Shown: positions 28,926 through 46,131, counted from the stretch's first letter. The stretch: DNA of 64,000 bases from Streptomyces sp. NBC_00094 (GCF_026343125.1 NZ_JAPEMB010000001.1:7817501-7881500); one strand, 5' to 3'. Numbers and translations: made by a program. The notes: a model not told the origin generated them from the letters alone.

Positions 28926-29022
28926 TCGAACAACCAGCAGTGGAAGCTCGTCGAGGTGGCCGGGTCTGCTGACGCTGCAGCGCTGACGACGTGGCACCGC
29001 ACCCGGCCCCGGTGCGGCCAAG

Positions 29023-29175
29023 CTGCAGGCGACTGGTCCGCGTATGGCCCGGATCTTGGTCGGCACGGAGTGGGCCCTGACCGATGGCCCATGGCGGCGG
29101 CGAGCCGGCACAAACGAGGGGCGGGTCGACAGGTCTCCACGGAGCACGCCTCGATCCAACGCGCCACGAGAGAGA
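29023..29175 (+). repeat. Direct repeat A bounding the RiPP island (left copy)
   Basis: About 153 bp, beginning CTGCAGGCGACTGGTCCGCG and ending ACGAGAGAGAG, matches 38795-38949 with scattered mismatches and a few indels (roughly nine in ten bases by eye). Same orientation in both copies. It has no clear coding sequence. The 9.8 kb between the copies holds the SARP gene and the RiPP-like operon. Confidence 0.8.
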
Positions 29176-29288: not shown

Positions 29289-32258
29289 GTGAAGTTCGGC
29301 GTATTGGGGCCGCTGACCGTATGGGACGACGTCGGCGAGATACGTCCTATCGTCCAGCCGAAGTCGAAGCTGCTGTTGGCGGCACTCCTGCTCGAACCGA
29401 ACGGCATCGTGTCGGTGGACGCAGTGAAGGAGATCATGTGGGGCGAGAAGCAGCCACCCACGGCCACCGCCTCCTTGCATAACCACGTCGGACGGCTCAG
29501 ACGCGCTCTCGGCGGGGGCGATGGTGATCGCATCCGCTCTACCCGGTACGGGTTCGAGATCCAGGTCGGGGACGGGGAGCTGGACGGCGAGTCGTTCGCA
29601 CGGCATCTGTCCCGCGCTCAGCGTGCCCTGGGCGAGGGAGACTGGAGGACAGCGAACGAAGAGGCGGCGTCGGCGCTGCGGCTGTGGCGCGGCTCGCCGC
29701 TTGCCGACCTGCCTTCCTTCGACGGTCATCTACGGGTCGTCTCCTATCAGGAACAGCGGCTGGAAGCCCTGGAATGCCGCTTCGACGCCCTCCTGCGGCT
29801 CGGTCGACTCGATGGTCTGGCCACGGAACTCGGAGCCCTGGCGAAGGAGCATCCGCTGCGGGAGGCCTTCCACCGGCAACTGATGCTCGTCCTCGACCGC
29901 ACCGGCCGCAAGGCGGAGGCGATCCTCGTCTTCCACGGCCTGCGCGAAACCCTCGTCGAGGAACTGGGTGTGGAGCCCGGCCCCGCAATCCAGGAGGTGA
30001 ACCAGGAGATCCTCTCGGCGGAGGCACGCAGGGAACAGCCCAACCCGGACGCCGAACCTCCGGCGAGGCTGCCAACGGTGCCACGCCCCGCCCAACTGCC
30101 AAAGCCGCCCACTGAGTTCGTGGGTCGTACGGACGAGATCGCAGCCATCCGCGCCGCGCTGACGGGGCAGCGCGCCCACACCGCCGTCGCCATCGTGAGC
30201 GGTATGGCGGGTGTCGGTAAGACCGGCCTCGCTCTGCGTGCCGCGGACGGCCTGCGTGCCGCCTTCCCCGACGGACAGCTGTTCCTCAATCTGCACGGGG
30301 CAACCCCTGGAGTACCGCCCCTGGACCCGTCCCAGGCACTCACCGCGCTCCTCTGCGGGCTCGGCCTGGAAGCCCGTTCCGTGCCCGTTGATGTGCAGGC
30401 TGCCTTTGCACGGCTGCGCTCGGTCCTGGCGGGCACGCGCACTCTTCTGGTGCTGGACGACGCCGCTTCGGCGAGCCAGGTCCGGCCCTTGCTGCCGGCG
30501 GCGCCGGGCTGTGCCGTGCTGATCACCAGCCGACTGCCACTCGCCACGCTCGACCCCACCCTGCGCACGCCGCTCGCCTTGCTGTCCTCCGCGGAAAGCG
30601 CCCAGTTGTTGGCGAGGGCATCCGGCCGCACCTGGACCACCGCTGACGACGACGTCATGGGCGAACTCGTAGCGCTGTGCGGCCGACTGCCACTCGCACT
30701 GCGGGTGACGGCGGCTCGACTCGCCACGCGCCGTGTCCTGACGGCCCGGAATCTCGTGGAGCGCCTTGCCGCTCAGGAACAGCGCCTCGACCACTTCGAA
30801 CTCGACGATCTGAGCGTACGTCGCTCGCTCGGCGTGGCCCACGCCACTCTGCGCGCTTCCGATGCCCCACGTGATCAGAACGCGGGACTGGCCCTCGTCA
30901 GGATCGGAGCGCTGGACCTGCCCACCTATCCGACCTCCCTTGTCGCCCGACTTATGGGCACCAGTGAGCGGGATGCGGAAGAGGCCCTCGACCGACTGGT
31001 GGAAGTCGCGCTCCTCGAAGACGTCAGCGACGGCAGATACTCGGCCCACGCTCTTGTCCGCGACTTCGCCCGCGAGCTCGCCCGCCGGGACGACGAGCAG
31101 GAAGAATGTGCCGCGGCGGTCATGCGAGCGCTGTCCTGGTACATCGCCAAAGCCGGACGTGCGGCGACGGCTCTCCGGCACTTGATCCAGAGCACGGTCG
31201 TCCGCGCCTGGGAGGACCGGGGGGCTGCTCCGTTCCTCAGCCCCGCCGACGCATTAGCCTGGGCGGACCAGGAAAGAGAGAACCTGCTGTTCCTCGCTGC
31301 GCAGGGTGGCGATGGCCCCATGGACCGCGCTCAGGCCCTGGAGCTGATGGAGGCGTTGTTCCCCTATCTGCATGACCGTGGACGGATCGAGGAGATGAAG
31401 AGTCTCGTCCACGGCGCCATCAGCCTCTCTCGGTCACATGGAGATGTGACGGCGCATTGCCAGGCGCTGCTGAACCTGGGAAGGACCTACTACACGGCCG
31501 GCCATCTCCACGATGCACTGCTTCTGATCGACGAGGCCATCGTGGTGGGCGAGGGGCACCACGAACCCGCCGCGATGGTGACGATGCTGGGCAACCGGGC
31601 TGCTCTGCTGAAGGAACTGGGGCGTGCCGCGGAGGCGCGTACGGCGCTCGACCAGTGCCTTGCCCTGCGGACGGAGCAGCTCTCGCCCATGCGGGAAGCC
31701 ATCCTTCTCGGGCATCAAGGCTACGTGGCTGAACTCCACGACCTCCGGCTGGCCGTCCGCTATCACCGCCAGAGCCTGGAGGTCGCCGAGCGGATCGACT
31801 ACCCCCTCATCCAGCAGGTCGCCCTGTGCAACCTGGCGCACGCTCATCTCGCGCTGCACGAGGCGGACATCGCGCTGGTCCACTTCGCTCGGGGACTCGC
31901 CGTCGTCTCCGATACGTCGCACTGGAACGCGGAGCGGGAGATCCGGCTCGGAGAGGCTCGTGCCCTGCGCGCTCTGGGGCGACTGGATGCCGCTCACGGG
32001 GCATGCGAGACGCTGCGCACCCTCGCCGAGGAACGCGGCGACCTGTACGCGACGGGGCTCGCCGATCACGAACACGGGCACATCCTCCGGGCCTTGGGGG
32101 ACGAGCCGAGCGCTCAGGAGCGGTGGAAGAGCGCGCTGTGGACCCTTGCCAGGACCGACGCGCCCGTACTCGAAGAGCTTCGCCTTCTGGTCAAGTCGAA
32201 CTCCCTTCCCGCACCGAGACCTCCGGCGTCTGCGCCGGAGCCGGTCTGCTCCGCGTGA
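29289..32258 (+). CDS. SARP-family activator with NB-ARC and TPR domains (AfsR-like)
   Basis: 989 residues. OmpR-type winged helix (about 1-95: VKFGVLGPLTVWD, TASLHNHVGRLRRALG), bacterial transcriptional activation domain (about 100-245), NB-ARC ATPase (about 275-560: P-loop GMAGVGKTGLAL, Walker B LLVLDDAASA, GLPL-like CGRLPLALRV) and C-terminal TPR repeats (about 700-960). The GTG at 29289 is chosen since the SARP fold starts there. It faces the RiPP operon and overlaps the MFS 3' end by 68 bp. It probably binds the heptamer repeats upstream of the precursor gene. Confidence 0.9.
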   Translation: MKFGVLGPLTVWDDVGEIRPIVQPKSKLLLAALLLEPNGIVSVDAVKEIMWGEKQPPTATASLHNHVGRLRRALGGGDGDRIRSTRYGFEIQVGDGELDGESFARHLSRAQRALGEGDWRTANEEAASALRLWRGSPLADLPSFDGHLRVVSYQEQRLEALECRFDALLRLGRLDGLATELGALAKEHPLREAFHRQLMLVLDRTGRKAEAILVFHGLRETLVEELGVEPGPAIQEVNQEILSAEARREQPNPDAEPPARLPTVPRPAQLPKPPTEFVGRTDEIAAIRAALTGQRAHTAVAIVSGMAGVGKTGLALRAADGLRAAFPDGQLFLNLHGATPGVPPLDPSQALTALLCGLGLEARSVPVDVQAAFARLRSVLAGTRTLLVLDDAASASQVRPLLPAAPGCAVLITSRLPLATLDPTLRTPLALLSSAESAQLLARASGRTWTTADDDVMGELVALCGRLPLALRVTAARLATRRVLTARNLVERLAAQEQRLDHFELDDLSVRRSLGVAHATLRASDAPRDQNAGLALVRIGALDLPTYPTSLVARLMGTSERDAEEALDRLVEVALLEDVSDGRYSAHALVRDFARELARRDDEQEECAAAVMRALSWYIAKAGRAATALRHLIQSTVVRAWEDRGAAPFLSPADALAWADQERENLLFLAAQGGDGPMDRAQALELMEALFPYLHDRGRIEEMKSLVHGAISLSRSHGDVTAHCQALLNLGRTYYTAGHLHDALLLIDEAIVVGEGHHEPAAMVTMLGNRAALLKELGRAAEARTALDQCLALRTEQLSPMREAILLGHQGYVAELHDLRLAVRYHRQSLEVAERIDYPLIQQVALCNLAHAHLALHEADIALVHFARGLAVVSDTSHWNAEREIRLGEARALRALGRLDAAHGACETLRTLAEERGDLYATGLADHEHGHILRALGDEPSAQERWKSALWTLARTDAPVLEELRLLVKSNSLPAPRPPASAPEPVCSA

Positions 32259-33408
32259 GCACATGGCCCAGTCCGATCAGGACCGGCACGGCTCCGGCCG
32301 CGAACATGAGGGCTCGAGCGTGATCCATCCCGGCCGCGGCGCCGGAGGCATATCCCAATAGGATGGCCAGCTTGGCCAGGAAGGCGAAGGCCGCCCACGC
32401 CCGGCCCTGGGTCTCGGACGAGGCGCGTTCTGCGATCACCACCGCGACCGATGCGTTGAACGCGCCGTTCGCGGCACCACCGATCAGGAAGGCCAACGCG
32501 ACCGAACCTCCGGTGAGAGGCAGCAGCGTGGGCGCTGCGATGACCGCGCCCATCACGCAGGCGGACGCGCCGAGCAGGCGTCCGCCGGCGTCGCTTGCTC
32601 GGTCGACCGGTACGCGCAGACTTCCCAGCAGCAGCCCCAGGGACCAACTGGCGATCGCCACGGAGTACCAGGTGTTGCCGAGTCCAAGTCCGTGCTGCAA
32701 GTAGAAGATGCCGACGACGCCTTCAAGAGAGGTCCCCAGAATCACCACGAAGATCAGGAAAACGCCCTGACGCCCGAAGACCTCCGGTCGAAGGAGCACA
32801 CCGAAGCCGGTCCACCGCTCGGGCCGAGCACGTGCGGATCCGCGGAACCGAGGCCGGCGGACGGATCCGCGGAGGGCGACCAGGCTGCACAGCACCAGTA
32901 CCAGGAACGACGCGGAGTTGACCAGCAGAAGCGTCGACCTGTTGAGCCAGGAATAGCTCAGGCCCGCGAGCATGAGCCCGATGACTCCGGCCATGCCGTC
33001 CAAGGAGGTGCGCCGTCTGACCGACCGGCCGCGCCGCTCCACCGGTGACAACTCTCGGAGCAGTACGGAGCCCATGGGACCGACGATGCTCTGTGCCGCG
33101 CTGGAAGCTGCGATCAGGGAGACGATGGGCCAGACCGTATCGACCTGCGATAGGGCGGCGAAGCACAGGGCCTGGACGACTAGTGCTGCCGACCACCAGA
33201 GAGGGTTCCCGTAGCGATCGGTGAGGTATCCGCCTATCAGGCCCAGGACGAGGGATGGCAGCAGTTGGGCGAGAAGAATCGCTGCCATCAAGGCGGTTGA
33301 CCCCATGCTTGCCGCGTACAGGGCGAAGGCGAGGGCGGCGGACTTGTCGCCCAGCGAGGAGACGAAGGTTCCGGTCAGAAGGACGTTCACGCGCCGGGAA
33401 GGATTCAC
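32191..33408 (-). CDS. MFS transporter, probable RiPP exporter
   Basis: 405 residues, 12 predicted TM segments. N-terminus GTFVSSLGDKSAALAFALYA, loop GGYLTDRYGNPLWW (the MFS G-x-x-x-D-R motif between TM2 and TM3), a second half from LIFVVILGTSLEGVVGIF and the final GHVLTRSRP. The GTG at 33408 overlaps the methyltransferase stop (GTGA). Last gene of the operon; the 3' end runs 68 bp into the convergent SARP gene. I infer export of, or self-protection against, the modified peptide. Confidence 0.85.
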   Translation of the reverse strand: MNPSRRVNVLLTGTFVSSLGDKSAALAFALYAASMGSTALMAAILLAQLLPSLVLGLIGGYLTDRYGNPLWWSAALVVQALCFAALSQVDTVWPIVSLIAASSAAQSIVGPMGSVLLRELSPVERRGRSVRRRTSLDGMAGVIGLMLAGLSYSWLNRSTLLLVNSASFLVLVLCSLVALRGSVRRPRFRGSARARPERWTGFGVLLRPEVFGRQGVFLIFVVILGTSLEGVVGIFYLQHGLGLGNTWYSVAIASWSLGLLLGSLRVPVDRASDAGGRLLGASACVMGAVIAAPTLLPLTGGSVALAFLIGGAANGAFNASVAVVIAERASSETQGRAWAAFAFLAKLAILLGYASGAAAGMDHARALMFAAGAVPVLIGLGHVLTRSRPAPAQTPEVSVREGSST

Positions 33409-34241
33409 CGTGTGTCCAGCGTGACGTGCATGAGGCGCACGGGCCAGCCCTTCGCACCACCATCGGCGACGTACATGGTGTCGGCCCGCGTGCAGCGGTG
33501 TCCCGCTGCTTCGAGGACGGCCTTGACAGCGGATTCCGTCCACACACGTTCGATGTGGTTTCCCAGGACCCCTGGCCATTCCTCTCCGGTGATGCCTCCC
33601 TCCAGGAAGACGTTGTGCAGCAGTTTGTGTTCGGACCTGATGTAGTGGATGCCTCGCCAGACGATCCGGTTCCTCCCGGAAGGAGCTCGGAAGGTATATG
33701 GCTGCACAACATGATCGAACGCGGGAAACTTGTCGATGACCTCGTCCGAGAAGACGGAGAGGAGGACGGATTTGGGCCCCTCGAAGGACTTCGACAGATT
33801 GCGCATCAGTGTGATCAAGGAATCGCTGTCTCGGAAAGAGTTGACTGTGACGTTGCCCATGACGAAGGCGGTCCGTCGGTCGAGCGATTCCAATGAGAAT
33901 GGGTGGAGAACATCCATGAGGCGGGTCTCGATCCCGGTTGCGGGAGAGTCCCTGAGTAGCTCCTCGAAGATGGACAGGGGACCCTGGACAGAGTCGAGAC
34001 CGATGTAAGTGTCGTATGCTCCGGCGAGGGCGAAGGCGAGGCGTCCGGTTCCGCAGCCGACGTCGACTATCCGCTCGATCTTCAGGCTCTCGCAGGCGCG
34101 TACCAGAGCTGCGACGTCCCAGGTCTGAACCGATGACATGGGGTGGTCCCAATACGCAAACGCGTCGTCGAAGAAGGATACTTGGCGGGGTGCCGGTTCC
34201 AGTGCGGCGATGCCGCGGAACATGCCGAAGAATCGGTTCAT
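33405..34241 (-). CDS. SAM-dependent methyltransferase (RiPP cluster)
   Basis: 278 residues. Class I methyltransferase fold: motif I IVDVGCGTGRLAFAL, motif II-like YDTYIGLDSVQG, then ETRLMDVLHPF and TAFVMGNVTVNSF. No radical-SAM CxxxCxxC. The ATG at 34241 overlaps the stop of the second HExxH gene (ATGA). The frame extends upstream to 34571, but that overlaps the neighbour and has no homology pattern. Likely tailors the modified peptide; target atom unknown. GC content is visibly lower than in the core genes on the right. Confidence 0.85.
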   Translation of the reverse strand: MNRFFGMFRGIAALEPAPRQVSFFDDAFAYWDHPMSSVQTWDVAALVRACESLKIERIVDVGCGTGRLAFALAGAYDTYIGLDSVQGPLSIFEELLRDSPATGIETRLMDVLHPFSLESLDRRTAFVMGNVTVNSFRDSDSLITLMRNLSKSFEGPKSVLLSVFSDEVIDKFPAFDHVVQPYTFRAPSGRNRIVWRGIHYIRSEHKLLHNVFLEGGITGEEWPGVLGNHIERVWTESAVKAVLEAAGHRCTRADTMYVADGGAKGWPVRLMHVTLDTR

Positions 34242-35287
34242 CCCTGCACCCCGGCCCGAATGTAACGCGCGATGTCCGGTTGAATACCGTGCGACCGGGC
34301 ATGGAAGAGGACCTTCATCAAGGCGTCGCCGAGCCATTCCGTGAATGCTTCGGACTCGGGGCCGGTATGCGCCCCCACCATGGCAGTGCCGGCGACGTGG
34401 GCGAAGAAGTGGGCGCGCGCAATGTACTCGGACACCTTTTCGGGCGTGGTATCCCCTGAGCCCATGGCATGGAGGGTCAGGTGGAAGAGCGAAAGGTGCG
34501 TGTAGACATGCAGCGTGGACAGCACGCGGACGGAATCCATCTGCCTCGGCCCTTCGGGCGTGGGATTCCACGGAATGTTGAGGAAGGGGCCGCTGGTCGG
34601 TGTGTACTGCGGTGGCAGAAGCCGCCGGACGAGTAGGAGATCGCCGAACTTCTGGTGCAGCGTCTCATGCAGAAGAGACTCGGCCAGATAGACCGGATCC
34701 CTCAGTATTCGCTCGTTGACGACGATGGTGAGAGGCGTCGGTGTGAGGTATGCGGAGTCAAAGGTACCGGCCAGGATCAGAACATTGCCGGAGAAGGGAA
34801 GGGTTTCGGTGGCGACCCGCCCCAGCGCCGACGAGAGAAATTCTTTTGCCTCGTCGATCCTCTCCTGCTGGAAGAGTGAAGGATCGAATTCTGGCGTTTC
34901 GGCCCCGTATCCTTCGGCCCGAAGGTCATGCACCGCTTCCTCGGTGATCCAGCGGATATCCTGATCGCTGGCAGGAGTGTCGATTCCGAGAACCCGCAGC
35001 GAAACAGAGAAATCCGCATCCGCTGTGAGGGGCGACGAAGGGGCCAAGGTGGCGGTGAGGGCCTGATCGCGGGTTGCCGAGGGTGCGCCGCGCAGCACCT
35101 TCTCAAGTTCCGCTCTGAGTCGCGCCTTGCGTGCGGAAGTCGGAACTCTCGAATAAGTGAGATTCTGCTTTCCTGGCGGAGTCAGCAACTCGGTGAGTCC
35201 GTCGAAAAGCGCGTCGGAATCGCTGCGGATCGATGGCCCGTCGCCGTAGGGCCCGTTCGCCAGATGCTCGACGATGTGGTGGATCAC
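34238..35287 (-). CDS. HExxH-motif peptide-modification protein 2
   Basis: 349 residues. The helix AESLLHETLHQKFGD contains His207-Glu208-x-x-His211, and STLHVYTHLSLFHL (His260, His264) follows about 50 residues later, matching the paralogue upstream. It resembles the mod_HExxH family annotated as alpha-ketoglutarate-dependent HExxH peptide beta-hydroxylases; an HExxH protein could also be a metallopeptidase. Stop and start codons overlap both neighbours by 4 bp. No signal peptide, so it should act on the precursor in the cytoplasm. No close identity to copy 1 beyond the metal region. Confidence 0.75.
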   Translation of the reverse strand: MIHHIVEHLANGPYGDGPSIRSDSDALFDGLTELLTPPGKQNLTYSRVPTSARKARLRAELEKVLRGAPSATRDQALTATLAPSSPLTADADFSVSLRVLGIDTPASDQDIRWITEEAVHDLRAEGYGAETPEFDPSLFQQERIDEAKEFLSSALGRVATETLPFSGNVLILAGTFDSAYLTPTPLTIVVNERILRDPVYLAESLLHETLHQKFGDLLLVRRLLPPQYTPTSGPFLNIPWNPTPEGPRQMDSVRVLSTLHVYTHLSLFHLTLHAMGSGDTTPEKVSEYIARAHFFAHVAGTAMVGAHTGPESEAFTEWLGDALMKVLFHARSHGIQPDIARYIRAGVQG

Positions 35288-35589
35288 TGCGCGCTCCCAG
35301 AGCGGATGAGATTTCCCGACTTGAGGTCTCCGAGGATCTCGTTGAAAATTCCGGTATCCTTCGGTGCACCGTGTTGCTCCCGCGCTTCCTGGTACGCTGC
35401 GCGGGCCGCTTCGATGTTGCCGCGATGCCGCACCAGCAGCGCCAGAACCGCAGCCGTCCCGGCGCCGAGCAGGACGGCGGAGACGGGCTCGACTGTGAAG
35501 GCCAGCACATGCCTTCCCGTGGAAAGCCTGGCGATGCGGTGGACGTTCACGTGGACGTCCTCGTCGGAGACGATGGTCGGGCCGGTCAT
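35284..35589 (-). CDS. Small single-TM protein of the RiPP operon
   Basis: 101 residues. N-terminal ~30 residues are soluble (VSDEDVHVNVHRIARLSTGR), one TM helix follows (about 34-54, EPVSAVLLGAGTAAVLALLV), and then a charged helix RGNIEAARAAYQEAREQHGA. I do not recognise the family. Its ATG (35589) overlaps the stop of HExxH protein 1, and its stop overlaps the start of HExxH protein 2. The position suggests a membrane anchor or scaffold for the two enzymes (speculative). Confidence 0.7.
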   Translation of the reverse strand: MTGPTIVSDEDVHVNVHRIARLSTGRHVLAFTVEPVSAVLLGAGTAAVLALLVRHRGNIEAARAAYQEAREQHGAPKDTGIFNEILGDLKSGNLIRSGSAQ

Positions 35590-36602
35590 GACTCCCCCTG
35601 GATGATGTGCTCTTCGGTCAATGGGTAGGCATGGCCGCTCGGCATGCTTTTGAGGGCTTCGGTCAACTGGCAGACCAGGGCGTTGCCGTCGACGGCCAGC
35701 GCCCGCGAGAACCTCTGATCGGCGAGGGCCGCCATCATGAAGGATGCACGCGCCGCGCATTCACGGGCTCGCTCGATGCTCTGCGGCGTACCCATGGCGG
35801 CGTTCAGCAGGGCGATGTGCGTGTACACGTGACCGGCCGACAGCAAACGCCAGGCATCGAACTCGCGCCGTCGCCGGGGCGGATACCAAGGCAGCGACAG
35901 CCTGAACCGTTCGGCGGTGTCGAGGGCTGGAGCGAGGAGCCAGCGAATCTGTCGAAGCGCGGCAGACTTCTCGTGTAGGGACTCGTGCAGGATCGCTTCC
36001 GCCACCCGGCCGGTGTCCTTGAGGAGGAGCTCGTCGTTCACGACGATCGTCTCGGGAAGCTGCATGAGGTACATGCTCTCGATGGGCGACCGGTGCACGA
36101 GTACCAGGTGGACCAGGGGCAGTGTCGTGCTCGAAATCAGAGGGAGGTGGTCCCGCACCGTGATGAGCCCCGACCGCAGGGCGGCCAGCGCGGCATCGGG
36201 CAGCGTGGGGGATGCGGCCCGGCCCAGGGCGTTCTGGGTCATCGCCGACTGGAAGAGATGGTCGAAGGCGTCGAAGCCGTGACGGGGGGAATAGTCCAGC
36301 GCCCACAGTCCAGGATCGAGCCGTTGGCCGGAGTCGTACGCGGGTGGCGTGCGGACGTGATCCGGGGTATCCGGAGGGGTACACCCCACGCCGGCCGCGG
36401 CGTGATTGACCTTGGCTCTCCAGACGACCCGCTCGATGGCTCCCGCCACGCTTGAGTCCGGGCCCGGCCGTCCGGTGACGGGAATCCTGGCCGACTCGGC
36501 CACGCCCTGACACCAGGTGTCGACGTCGGACAGGAGACCATCACTCGCGACCGGTCCCGAGGAGAGCAGCGAGTCAAGGTCTTCGATCAGCCGGATACCC
36601 AT
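35586..36602 (-). CDS. HExxH-motif peptide-modification protein 1
   Basis: 338 residues. AEAILHESLHEKSAAL carries His206-Glu207-x-x-His210, and SAGHVYTHIALLNA (His258, His262) provides a possible third ligand. TIVVNDELLLKDTGRVAEAI before the motif matches TIVVNERILRDPVYLAES in the paralogue. Best fit is the HExxH peptide beta-hydroxylase type found in RiPP clusters (Fe(II)/alpha-ketoglutarate); a peptidase role is not excluded. The ATG at 36602 lies 16 bp inside the end of the 2OG oxygenase gene; the frame to 37211 is rejected because it overlaps that gene. Confidence 0.75.
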   Translation of the reverse strand: MGIRLIEDLDSLLSSGPVASDGLLSDVDTWCQGVAESARIPVTGRPGPDSSVAGAIERVVWRAKVNHAAAGVGCTPPDTPDHVRTPPAYDSGQRLDPGLWALDYSPRHGFDAFDHLFQSAMTQNALGRAASPTLPDAALAALRSGLITVRDHLPLISSTTLPLVHLVLVHRSPIESMYLMQLPETIVVNDELLLKDTGRVAEAILHESLHEKSAALRQIRWLLAPALDTAERFRLSLPWYPPRRRREFDAWRLLSAGHVYTHIALLNAAMGTPQSIERARECAARASFMMAALADQRFSRALAVDGNALVCQLTEALKSMPSGHAYPLTEEHIIQGES

Positions 36603-37270
36603 GATGTCTCCTGAAGGCCCAGTGTGAGGAGGACGGCCTCTTCGCCGGGACCGAGGGGGGTTCTGCCATGCGGAGTCTCGGCCGCATGGAACCAGGCAGC
36701 CTGGCCGGGCGCGAGGTCGTAGCCGGTGACGACGGAGCTCGACTGGACGAAGTACGTGGCCGAGAACCTCTTGGCGTGCTCCGGCCTGACTCGCTTCAGG
36801 CAGAGCAGGAGGTTCAGCGGGAACCGGTTGGCGTTGTCGACGTGCAGGGGGATGAAGTCGCCCTCCTCGTAATAGAGAAAGGAGCAGAGGTACTTCGCGT
36901 GGATGCTTCGTCCGTAGAGCTCCTCGACGGACTCCCTGACGCGTGCGGCATCCAGCCGGCCGACTACCTCTGGCGGGCACGCGGAGATGGTTCGGCCGTA
37001 GCGAACCTGTGCCTCCGCGCGAGCCGAGGACGCGAAGTCGACCATCTCGGCCAGGAATTCGGCATCGGCGAACCCGGGCCGAAGGACGATCGGCTCGAAC
37101 AGCCTTGAGGTGGCCGTTGAGTCGGCGGCGCAGTCGATGAGAATGCGGCTCGGCGTTTCGGGGCGCGGCAGCAGGCCGCGCGGGGTGAGGGGCATGAGGA
37201 TCCGAGACCACTCGTTCGTCCTCTGCTCGGCCTCTCTCAGGACGGCTCCTGAAGCATCTGCGTTCTGCAT
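36587..37270 (-). CDS. 2OG-Fe(II) oxygenase (RiPP cluster)
   Basis: 227 residues. Jelly-roll dioxygenase of the prolyl-4-hydroxylase-like group: LYYEEGDFIPLHVDNANRF gives His143-x-Asp145, and AETPHGRTPLGPGEEAV gives distal His201 and the 2OG-binding Arg203. Asp/Pro/Tyr-containing segments of the precursor are plausible targets. The ATG at 37270 has GGAGGGTG 8 nt upstream; the frame upstream to 37402 is ignored. First enzyme gene after the precursor, separated by a hairpin at 37308-37343. Confidence 0.8.
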   Translation of the reverse strand: MQNADASGAVLREAEQRTNEWSRILMPLTPRGLLPRPETPSRILIDCAADSTATSRLFEPIVLRPGFADAEFLAEMVDFASSARAEAQVRYGRTISACPPEVVGRLDAARVRESVEELYGRSIHAKYLCSFLYYEEGDFIPLHVDNANRFPLNLLLCLKRVRPEHAKRFSATYFVQSSSVVTGYDLAPGQAAWFHAAETPHGRTPLGPGEEAVLLTLGLQETSWVSG

Positions 37271-37307
37271 GTGATCACACCCTCCGGCTTCGAACTCCAC
37301 ACTTGTC

Positions 37308-37343
37308 GGGCACGCCCCCGCCGTCTCCGGTGAGGGCGTGCCC
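37308..37343 (-). terminator. Hairpin between precursor and oxygenase genes
   Basis: GGGCACGCCC (37308-37317) and GGGCGTGCCC (37334-37343) form a perfect 10-bp stem with a 16-nt loop and no U-tract. It is placed to lower transcription of the enzymes relative to the precursor, or to stabilise the precursor mRNA. Confidence 0.55.
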
Positions 37344-37456
37344 GAGTACCCCGTGTCCTGCATTGGCCAGTGGCCGAACCCGTCGGCGCGGTGCGAGGTC
37401 ACGCTCTGACCGCTTGACCCCGCCGGTTCAACTCGCGATACGGGTTTCCGGACTGG

Positions 37457-37597
37457 TTACGCCGGGTCCGGGTACTGGGCCTGTGCGCGCAGGTCGGGAG
37501 CGGAGATGGTCACCATCGTGGACTCGGCGTCGCCCTCGAGGAAGGCGAGCTCCATCAGCTGGTCGATGTCCACCATGTTGGAGTCGTTGTTACCCAT
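37457..37597 (-). CDS. Putative RiPP precursor peptide
   Basis: 46 residues starting MGNNDSNMVDIDQLMELAFL, acidic, without a signal peptide or TM helix. The leader-like helix DIDQLMELAFLEGDAEST is followed by a short tail ending APDLRAQAQYPDPA, where Asp, Gln, Tyr and Pro are possible oxidation sites. AAGGAGAG lies just upstream of the ATG, and SARP-type repeats lie ~90-150 bp upstream. It is too short for the ORF threshold used elsewhere. First gene of the operon. The function is inferred from position, size and RBS strength. Confidence 0.8.
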   Translation of the reverse strand: MGNNDSNMVDIDQLMELAFLEGDAESTMVTISAPDLRAQAQYPDPA

Positions 37598-37687
37598 GAT
37601 CTCTCCTTATGAACGATGGCTGTGGTCCGTCGGCTCTTCCGTCGGACGGTGGCCTTGAGGAGAGTCTGGAGCGCGGGATCAACGCTT

Positions 37688-37747
37688 CTCCAACCTGTGA
37701 CTAACAGCGTCACTGCTTATGCGGCCGGCCTCCAACAGGCCACTAAC
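37688..37747 (-). promoter_or_regulatory. SARP-type heptamer repeats of the RiPP promoter
   Basis: On the minus strand, GTTAGTG-4 bp-GTTGGAG (37747-37730) and GTTAGTC-4 bp-GTTGGAG (37705-37688) are two pairs of direct heptamers. The period within each pair is 11 bp, and the pairs lie 42 bp (four helical turns) apart. SARP regulators bind heptamers at 11- or 22-bp spacing just upstream of the -10 region. The precursor start is 90 bp downstream. Confidence 0.75.
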
Positions 37748-38744: not shown

Positions 38745-38794
38745 CGCGCCTCGCATGGCCTCTGACCAGCGGAAACGGCCACGACTCGACCCGG

Positions 38795-38949
38795 CTGCGG
38801 GCGGCTGGTCCGCGTATGGCCCGGATCTTGGTCGGCACGGAGTGGGTCCCTGACCGATGGCCCGTGGCGGCGGCGAGCCGGCACACAACGAGGGGCGGGC
38901 CGACAGGTCTCCACGGAGAATGCCTCGATCCAACGGGCTACGAGAGAGA
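38795..38949 (+). repeat. Direct repeat B bounding the RiPP island (right copy)
   Basis: About 155 bp matching repeat A (29023-29175) in the same orientation, starting CTGCGGGCGGCTGGTCCGCG. It starts 51 bp after the end of the dehydrogenase-tail copy 1. The adjacent 38950-39192 stretch contains no gene I can recognise. Confidence 0.8.
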
Positions 38950-44237: not shown

Positions 44238-44455
44238 GATTGGCCCCGGGTACCGTCCAGCAGCGCCCACAGCTCCGTGAGCCTTGCGTCGGTGCCGCAG
44301 GTTTTGGGAGGGCTCTCAACACGTGTCGGCCCCAGAATCCTGTTCCCTACGAGCTCGTAACACGATCTTGTTGAAGCGTCCCGGTCGGCCGTGACCGGAT
44401 CGAGCAGTCCATGGAGGAGTGGGGCCGCGTCAGCCGGGGCGAGGCGTCTGGGGGG
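44238..44455 (-). other. Possible degraded minus-strand coding fragment
   Basis: The minus frame here reads LAPADAAPLLHGLLDPVTAD and DARLTELWALLDGTRG, protein-like but without a start that fits or an identified family. It ends near the response-regulator stop. Could be a remnant left at the island boundary. Confidence 0.25.
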
Positions 44456-44558
44456 TGGTCCGTGACTGGTCCGGAAGAGCTGGTCAGGAGTGGGATACCG
44501 GTGGGATGAACGGGGAGTTTCGGCGCAAACGAGACCCTTTTCTCGGCAAGGCAAACGA

Positions 44559-44600
44559 GAGGCGCCTGACGGGCAAAGGCCCAGGTCAGGCGCCTCTTTT
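44559..44600. terminator. Terminator of aldehyde dehydrogenase (bidirectional)
   Basis: GAGGCGCCTGAC (44559-44570) and GTCAGGCGCCTC (44585-44596) form a 12-bp stem with a 14-nt loop. TTTT follows on the plus strand, and a mixed TCGTTTG tail follows on the minus strand. It ends 11 bp past the dehydrogenase stop. Confidence 0.8.
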
Positions 44601-44607
44601 CGTGCCG

Positions 44608-46131
<1,524 letters not shown>

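Follow-up and report, generated by a model that had tools for sequence, protein, structure and literature searches.

A translationally coupled locus of about nine kb in Streptomyces sp. NBC_00094 very probably encodes a RiPP pathway, and it is likely to represent an undescribed family in which a RiPP recognition element (RRE) presents a six-residue core, AQAQYP, to HExxH hydroxylases; the chemistry and product proposed below are those we infer. The window, meaning the whole 64,000-nucleotide stretch analysed, covers bases 7,817,501-7,881,500 of an 8.19 Mb assembly (two contigs) and lies near a chromosome end. A short conserved precursor gene is found beside modifying enzymes, the arrangement by which RiPP clusters are recognised. 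The first-pass annotation had read the locus as RiPP-like, and this reading is supported by the conservation of the precursor, by an RRE-type protein and by a plasmid-borne copy of the cluster. No description of AQAQYP or of the cluster was found in the open-licence literature, where absence proves little; as far as the literature searched shows, the family appears undescribed.

The locus, its relatives and the precursor

The features of the region, in window coordinates, are as follows.

29018..29175, plus strand: direct repeat, left copy, flanking the SARP gene and the cluster
29289..32258, plus strand: AfsR/SARP-type regulator (BTAD, NB-ARC and TPR; Pfam/NCBIfam domains)
32191..33408, minus strand: MFS exporter (MFS_1, E 4.9e-26, Pfam), in five of five clusters
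33405..34241, minus strand: SAM-dependent methyltransferase (Methyltransf_25, E 1.8e-6, Pfam)
34238..35287, minus strand: HExxH-2, alphaKG-HExxH-like (HETLH ... HVYTH), a separate clade, in four of five clusters
35284..35589, minus strand: probable discrete RRE, 101 aa, modelled as strands followed by three helices
35586..36602, minus strand: HExxH-1, alphaKG-HExxH-like (HESLH ... HVYTH), a paralogue of HExxH-2, in five of five clusters
36587..37270, minus strand: 2OG-Fe(II) oxygenase, prolyl-hydroxylase type (HVD...HGR), from motif and model
37306..37345, minus strand: RNA hairpin between the precursor and the first enzyme gene (14+3 bp stem, region z = -4.1)
37457..37597, minus strand: precursor, 46 aa, MGNNDSNMVDIDQLMELAFLEGDAESTMVTISAPDLR-AQAQYP-DPA, with acidic leader and invariant core, conserved in five clusters
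38790..38949, plus strand: direct repeat, right copy, 94% identical to the left copy

On the minus strand the gene order is precursor, 2OG oxygenase, HExxH-1, 101-residue protein, HExxH-2, methyltransferase and MFS exporter. Each gene named in the first-pass annotation is present where it had been placed, and the start/stop overlaps described from HExxH-1 onward are exact: HExxH-1 starts 16 bases within the 2OG gene, and the four junctions that follow are four-base ATGA or GTGA overlaps. The gap between the precursor and the 2OG gene is about 190 bases, with the strong hairpin inside it, and the related cluster of Glutamicibacter nicotianae (below) has a perfect 15-bp hairpin at the equivalent site (z = -7.5). 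A hairpin between precursor and enzyme genes is a usual device for producing precursor in excess over enzyme, and the hairpin at 37306-37345 is probably a partial terminator with this role. The region has no Rfam matches or tRNAs, and no consensus promoter or terminator was found in it.

The AfsR/SARP-type gene is convergent with the MFS gene, the two overlapping end to end by 68 bases, and no match to this gene lies near the cluster in the loci of the four relatives. Of the earlier proposal that the operon is under a SARP activator, the adjacency stands, and with adjacency as the only link SARP control of the cluster is no more than a possibility. The flanking direct repeat is about 158 bp long, and a genome search gave these two copies only. 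Since repeat-related sequence is also present at 44399-44669 and in two related genomes, the repeat may be an IS remnant. That the cluster had inserted at the repeat was considered and rejected: the two related genomes have the repeat without shared flanks, and no empty site was seen.

The same cluster is found in Amycolatopsis xylanica, in two further genomes of the window's genus (G101 and G1179) and on plasmid pGnpA106 of Glutamicibacter nicotianae, in the following orders.

A. xylanica: MFS (opposite strand), 2OG (frameshifted reading), HExxH-1, RRE, HExxH-2, methyltransferase, precursor
G101: HExxH-1, RRE, precursor, HExxH-2, degraded methyltransferase, MFS; without 2OG
G1179: as G101, with the methyltransferase intact; without 2OG
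Glutamicibacter: precursor, 2OG, HExxH-1, RRE, methyltransferase, MFS; without HExxH-2

Searching 296 genomes of the genus, together with a collection scan, yielded G101 and A. xylanica; 395 genomes of the family yielded G1179, and plasmids searched by tblastn with the 2OG protein yielded the Glutamicibacter copy. No further full member came from three more samples (395 genomes of the class, 297 of the Amycolatopsis family and a second draw of 393 from the genus), several of the draws overlapping, so the AQAQYP cluster family appears to be rare. Across the five clusters the enzymes are only about 25-40% identical. The plasmid-borne Glutamicibacter copy is independent, lies in another family and adds evidence beyond that of the first-pass annotation. 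The A. xylanica 2OG gene (L018, 6063-6668) is read in two frames with two shifts, reflecting decay or an assembly error, and the G101 methyltransferase (L019, 7450-8060) is in pieces in different frames beside an intact precursor and two intact HExxH genes.

The small ORF at 37457-37597 carries a ribosome-binding site, AAGGAGAG. In all five clusters the precursor C-terminus reads P-[DE]-[ILV]-x-AQAQYP and then 1-4 residues (APDLR-AQAQYP-DPA, SPEVR-AQAQYP-DPNH, QPDVE-AQAQYP-R, IPEIQ-AQAQYP-AVS and VPDIQ-AQAQYP-RMV). P34 and A38 to P43 are invariant, and the leaders share mainly their acidity. The Glutamicibacter precursor is a separately annotated 40-aa gene. Lack of conservation of this ORF had been named at the outset as grounds for giving up the RiPP reading; the ORF is instead kept in four of four related clusters with its AQAQYP end invariant, and because of this conservation it is more than a chance frame. 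Outside the precursors, AQAQYP occurs in no other reading frame among 1.4 million codons of compared sequence, and 50 shuffles of each relative's locus gave zero occurrences. The core DNA pattern has a single site in the 8.19 Mb home genome, namely the precursor, and a longer core pattern searched in 148 genomes of the class matched the home genome alone. This invariance and absence elsewhere are strong evidence, at the level of sequence, that AQAQYP is the core peptide.

In four clusters the 2OG gene seemed to go with a core followed by a PDP tail, the gene being present alongside PDPA and PDPNH and absent alongside AVS and RMV. The link was dropped because Glutamicibacter has the 2OG gene and yet a bare R as its tail.

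The HExxH pair, the candidate RRE and the accessory enzymes

Pfam matches at this locus are limited to the methyltransferase, the MFS protein and the SARP, and the remaining assignments draw on more sensitive profiles, motifs and models. The two diverged HExxH proteins with a common HVYTH motif were confirmed as paralogues, being 40% identical over 139 aa (E 5e-19). HExxH-2 matches TIGR04267, the NCBIfam model of alphaKG-HExxH-type peptide beta-hydroxylases, with 34 bits (E 2.8e-8), below the curated cut-off of 40 bits; HExxH-1 gives nothing at E 1 and its G1179 counterpart nothing at E 0.001. Every HExxH protein of the five clusters falls short of this cut-off, the relatives scoring 17-36 bits (best 36/40). 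Several comparisons nevertheless point to the same family. Firstly, hhalign against accepted alphaKG-HExxH members (five proteins, of which the four tested are all above the TIGR04267 cut-off) gives a probability of 99.8 and E 1.9e-28 over 327 columns. Secondly, a six-protein HExxH profile matches the ChlH crystal structure 8s5f (E 3.1e-6), in an alignment that covers HExxH, PW and the final His of HVYTH. Finally, no HExxH protein matches a Pfam peptidase family; matches to such families only had been named at the outset as grounds against the RiPP reading. H206, E207, H210 and H262 are invariant, and the proteins appear to form a divergent branch of the alphaKG-HExxH enzymes.

In a phylogenetic tree HExxH-1 and HExxH-2 form two clades (support 84/84 and 100/98, respectively), and the order within both is (window, A. 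xylanica),(G101, G1179); the long-branch rows L028 and L029 group together in a position that is not trusted. Because both clades branch alike, the second HExxH gene predates the split of the four clusters. As judged from the tree, the pair is old, with both copies retained in four clusters and the first copy only in Glutamicibacter.

The 101-residue protein, first described as a small membrane protein, is not one, its hydrophobic stretch being the first helix of the RRE model; it is better explained as an RRE or PqqD-type winged helix. An AlphaFold2 model built from four sequences (pLDDT 71, moderate confidence) finds as its best PDB folds TbiB1 with leader (Z 8.5), lasso B1 (7.9 / 6jx3), TbtB, MccB and MibB, followed by PqqD (6.9), CteB, LynD, TruD, ThcOx and McbB, so that nearly all of the list consists of RREs or PqqD. 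A Z of about 8 alone is no proof of fold identity, and the Foldseek E-value is weak (0.24). The sequence itself has no Pfam PqqD match and reaches a profile-profile probability of 0.2 against PqqD relatives. Homologues of 87-116 aa with little sequence identity adjoin HExxH-1 in five of five clusters, bearing out the co-occurrence that had been proposed as a check, and PqqD-type proteins lie beside HExxH genes in related clusters (Pfam PqqD, E 3e-15 in L044 and E 8e-4 in L020). Since the fold list agrees with the operon position and with the PqqD domains of related HExxH clusters, the modelled protein is probably an RRE that acts as a leader-binding subunit.

The 2OG protein matches nothing in Pfam (E 1) or NCBIfam, 2OG-FeII_Oxy included, so the first-pass assignment stands on fold and catalytic residues and not on the Pfam match. 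The HxD...H...R motif (H143, D145, H201, R203) is invariant with Glutamicibacter and a third cluster, and structures similar to the model include P. putida P4H (E 9e-8) and other 2OG oxygenases (Z 15), with moderate confidence in the core and no confident modelling of the N-terminal 58 residues. Among all plasmids, the sole match to the methyltransferase is in the Glutamicibacter cluster, and the A. xylanica protein is 41% identical; it appears to be a cluster-specific family.

Known systems and neighbouring cluster types

Known substrates of alphaKG-HExxH enzymes are His, Asp, Phe, Gln and Pro, which are beta-hydroxylated (PMC13060819). PflC and PosC of Pseudomonas beta-hydroxylate Gln runs and cut at Ala (PMC12636437). 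Like the AQAQYP cluster, the PflC/PosC system has an HExxH enzyme that acts on the precursor C-terminus, conserved Gln and Ala, and no cluster protease; unlike it, it has a long nitrile-hydratase-like leader, an MNIO-nitroreductase partner, a GNAT protein and one HExxH enzyme, and no separate RRE protein or methyltransferase is listed. ChlH and other fused radical SAM-alphaKG-HExxH enzymes (8s5f) are homologous to the cluster's HExxH proteins over the HExxH...PW...HL region. ChlH is described as a radical SAM fusion with a cyclophane substrate (Morishita et al. 2024, as cited in PMC13060819), whereas the AQAQYP cluster lacks radical SAM genes and its two HExxH genes stand alone. The biphenomycin clusters bip/bpm (PMC12707348, PMC12257519) likewise have a precursor of ~40 residues with a very short C-terminal core, here FRF, and an HExxH-type beta-hydroxylase beside another oxygenase, but their biaryl ring is made by an MNIO, a radical SAM enzyme, an arginase and a TldD peptidase, none of which is present in the AQAQYP cluster.

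Four uncharacterised clusters from Streptomycetaceae and Pseudonocardiaceae combine HExxH and SPASM radical SAM enzymes (L072 7929-13089, L073 6206-8844, L031 5131-10417 and L047 6148-9000) and look like a related RiPP group. L031 and L072 also have B12 radical SAM enzymes, and some of the four carry MFS genes. Their precursors contain ...VQPE[IV]R[ST][AG]AQYALMPSM... or a variant, which aligns with the PDLRAQAQYP region, and the seven aligned precursors all agree at one Gln column and two Pro columns. The two groups share the precursor pattern P-[EDS]-[IVL]-R-x-x-[AS]-Q and homologous HExxH enzymes; the SPASM clusters differ in having radical SAM enzymes instead of the RRE, second HExxH and methyltransferase genes, and in a core that runs on as AQYALMPSM. 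We read this as a common substrate logic, as far as sequence comparison can indicate.

Other HExxH loci were seen in passing. L020 (8536-11484) and L070 (6059-10062) combine an HExxH gene with a PLP decarboxylase-like gene and a precursor-like ORF of 56 aa, to which L020 adds a PqqD-like protein; they are possibly a further RiPP type. In L030 (7526-15469), an HExxH gene lies between two P4H-like 2OG oxygenase genes, followed by an M13-type peptidase-like protein, a TPR protein, an aldo-keto reductase and an MFS gene, and the locus is a candidate oxidised-peptide cluster. In L029 (8973-10538), the HExxH protein has a PqqD-looking C-terminal extension without a Pfam match, and a SARP-type regulator and a 71-aa ORF adjoin it.

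Proposed pathway and alternatives

The RRE protein would bind the leader and present the precursor C-terminus to the HExxH enzymes. HExxH-1 and HExxH-2, with Fe(II) and alpha-ketoglutarate, would then place hydroxyl groups on the beta carbons of core side chains. AQAQYP contains two Gln, two Ala and one Pro, and the likeliest targets are the glutamines, with Gln41 first because, besides Pro, it is the sole residue of the hexapeptide that the precursors of the related radical SAM clusters also retain. We judge the chances that the HExxH pair hydroxylates Gln to be about even. Where present, the 2OG oxygenase may oxidise the peptide further, perhaps at the conserved Pro43; the methyltransferase would cap it and the MFS protein would export the product. 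The operon recurs in five genomes, and the losses in individual members speak against this pathway, among them the degraded methyltransferase and absent 2OG gene of G101, the frameshifted 2OG gene of A. xylanica and the missing HExxH-2 of Glutamicibacter.

None of the five clusters was seen to contain a leader peptidase or other protease gene, and the core would be freed by a protease from elsewhere or by the HExxH enzymes themselves. The HExxH proteins could in fact be mainly processing enzymes that cut the backbone as PflC does, oxidatively at Ala or by hydrolysis, to release or trim the core, with hydroxylation a minor activity. Ala occupies positions 38 and 40 in the core, two HExxH enzymes could split two jobs, and in PflC/PosC Ala directs oxidative backbone cleavage while the neighbouring Gln is hydroxylated (PMC12636437). 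However, only one enzyme pair is known to cleave and the other characterised members hydroxylate (PMC13060819), and RiPP clusters commonly do without a protease. We consider this reading unlikely, if worth keeping in mind.

A side-chain cross-link or ring, for example with Gln, Tyr or Pro joined oxidatively, would be a different outcome from simple hydroxyls. AQAQYP is fully fixed, Tyr included, as expected of a defined scaffold; HExxH occurs together with radical SAM enzymes and AQY precursors in related clusters; and PMC12636437 cites an alphaKG enzyme that cross-links Cys and Tyr in a RiPP. Known alphaKG-HExxH enzymes nevertheless hydroxylate or cleave, and such a product is decidedly unlikely. 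We give similarly little credence to a protease-free family in which the two paralogues divide the work, one hydroxylating or cross-linking AQAQYP and the other cleaving the backbone. If this were true, a discrete RRE and HExxH enzymes would build and release a tiny, heavily oxidised, methylated peptide by a protease-free route without radical SAM, YcaO or lanthionine chemistry.

It is very improbable that the HExxH proteins act as genuine zinc peptidases and cut off the leader, leaving oxidation of the core to the 2OG oxygenase alone. HExxH is the classic zincin motif and the clusters otherwise have no dedicated protease, but the profiles match alphaKG-HExxH hydroxylases and no peptidase family, and two clusters with the core and both HExxH genes have no 2OG gene. 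That the small ORF is spurious and the enzymes act on a small molecule is hardly credible: 2OG oxygenases and methyltransferases are common in many other pathways, but the ORF has an invariant end in five clusters, among them the annotated Glutamicibacter gene, and every cluster has an RRE-type protein.

As a RiPP family in which an RRE would present AQAQYP to HExxH hydroxylases, these clusters offer a small set of parts that lends itself to testing: besides a short precursor and a separate RRE, it needs a single HExxH enzyme in Glutamicibacter and two in the window's genus and Amycolatopsis. That alphaKG-HExxH enzymes are oxygenases is a recent recognition, and substrates are known for few of them. 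The family could show whether a free-standing RRE serves HExxH enzymes and what a duplicate enzyme adds, and its six-residue core is a search target for culture extracts. With their related precursors, the radical SAM clusters point to a wider, unrecognised group of AQY-type RiPPs.
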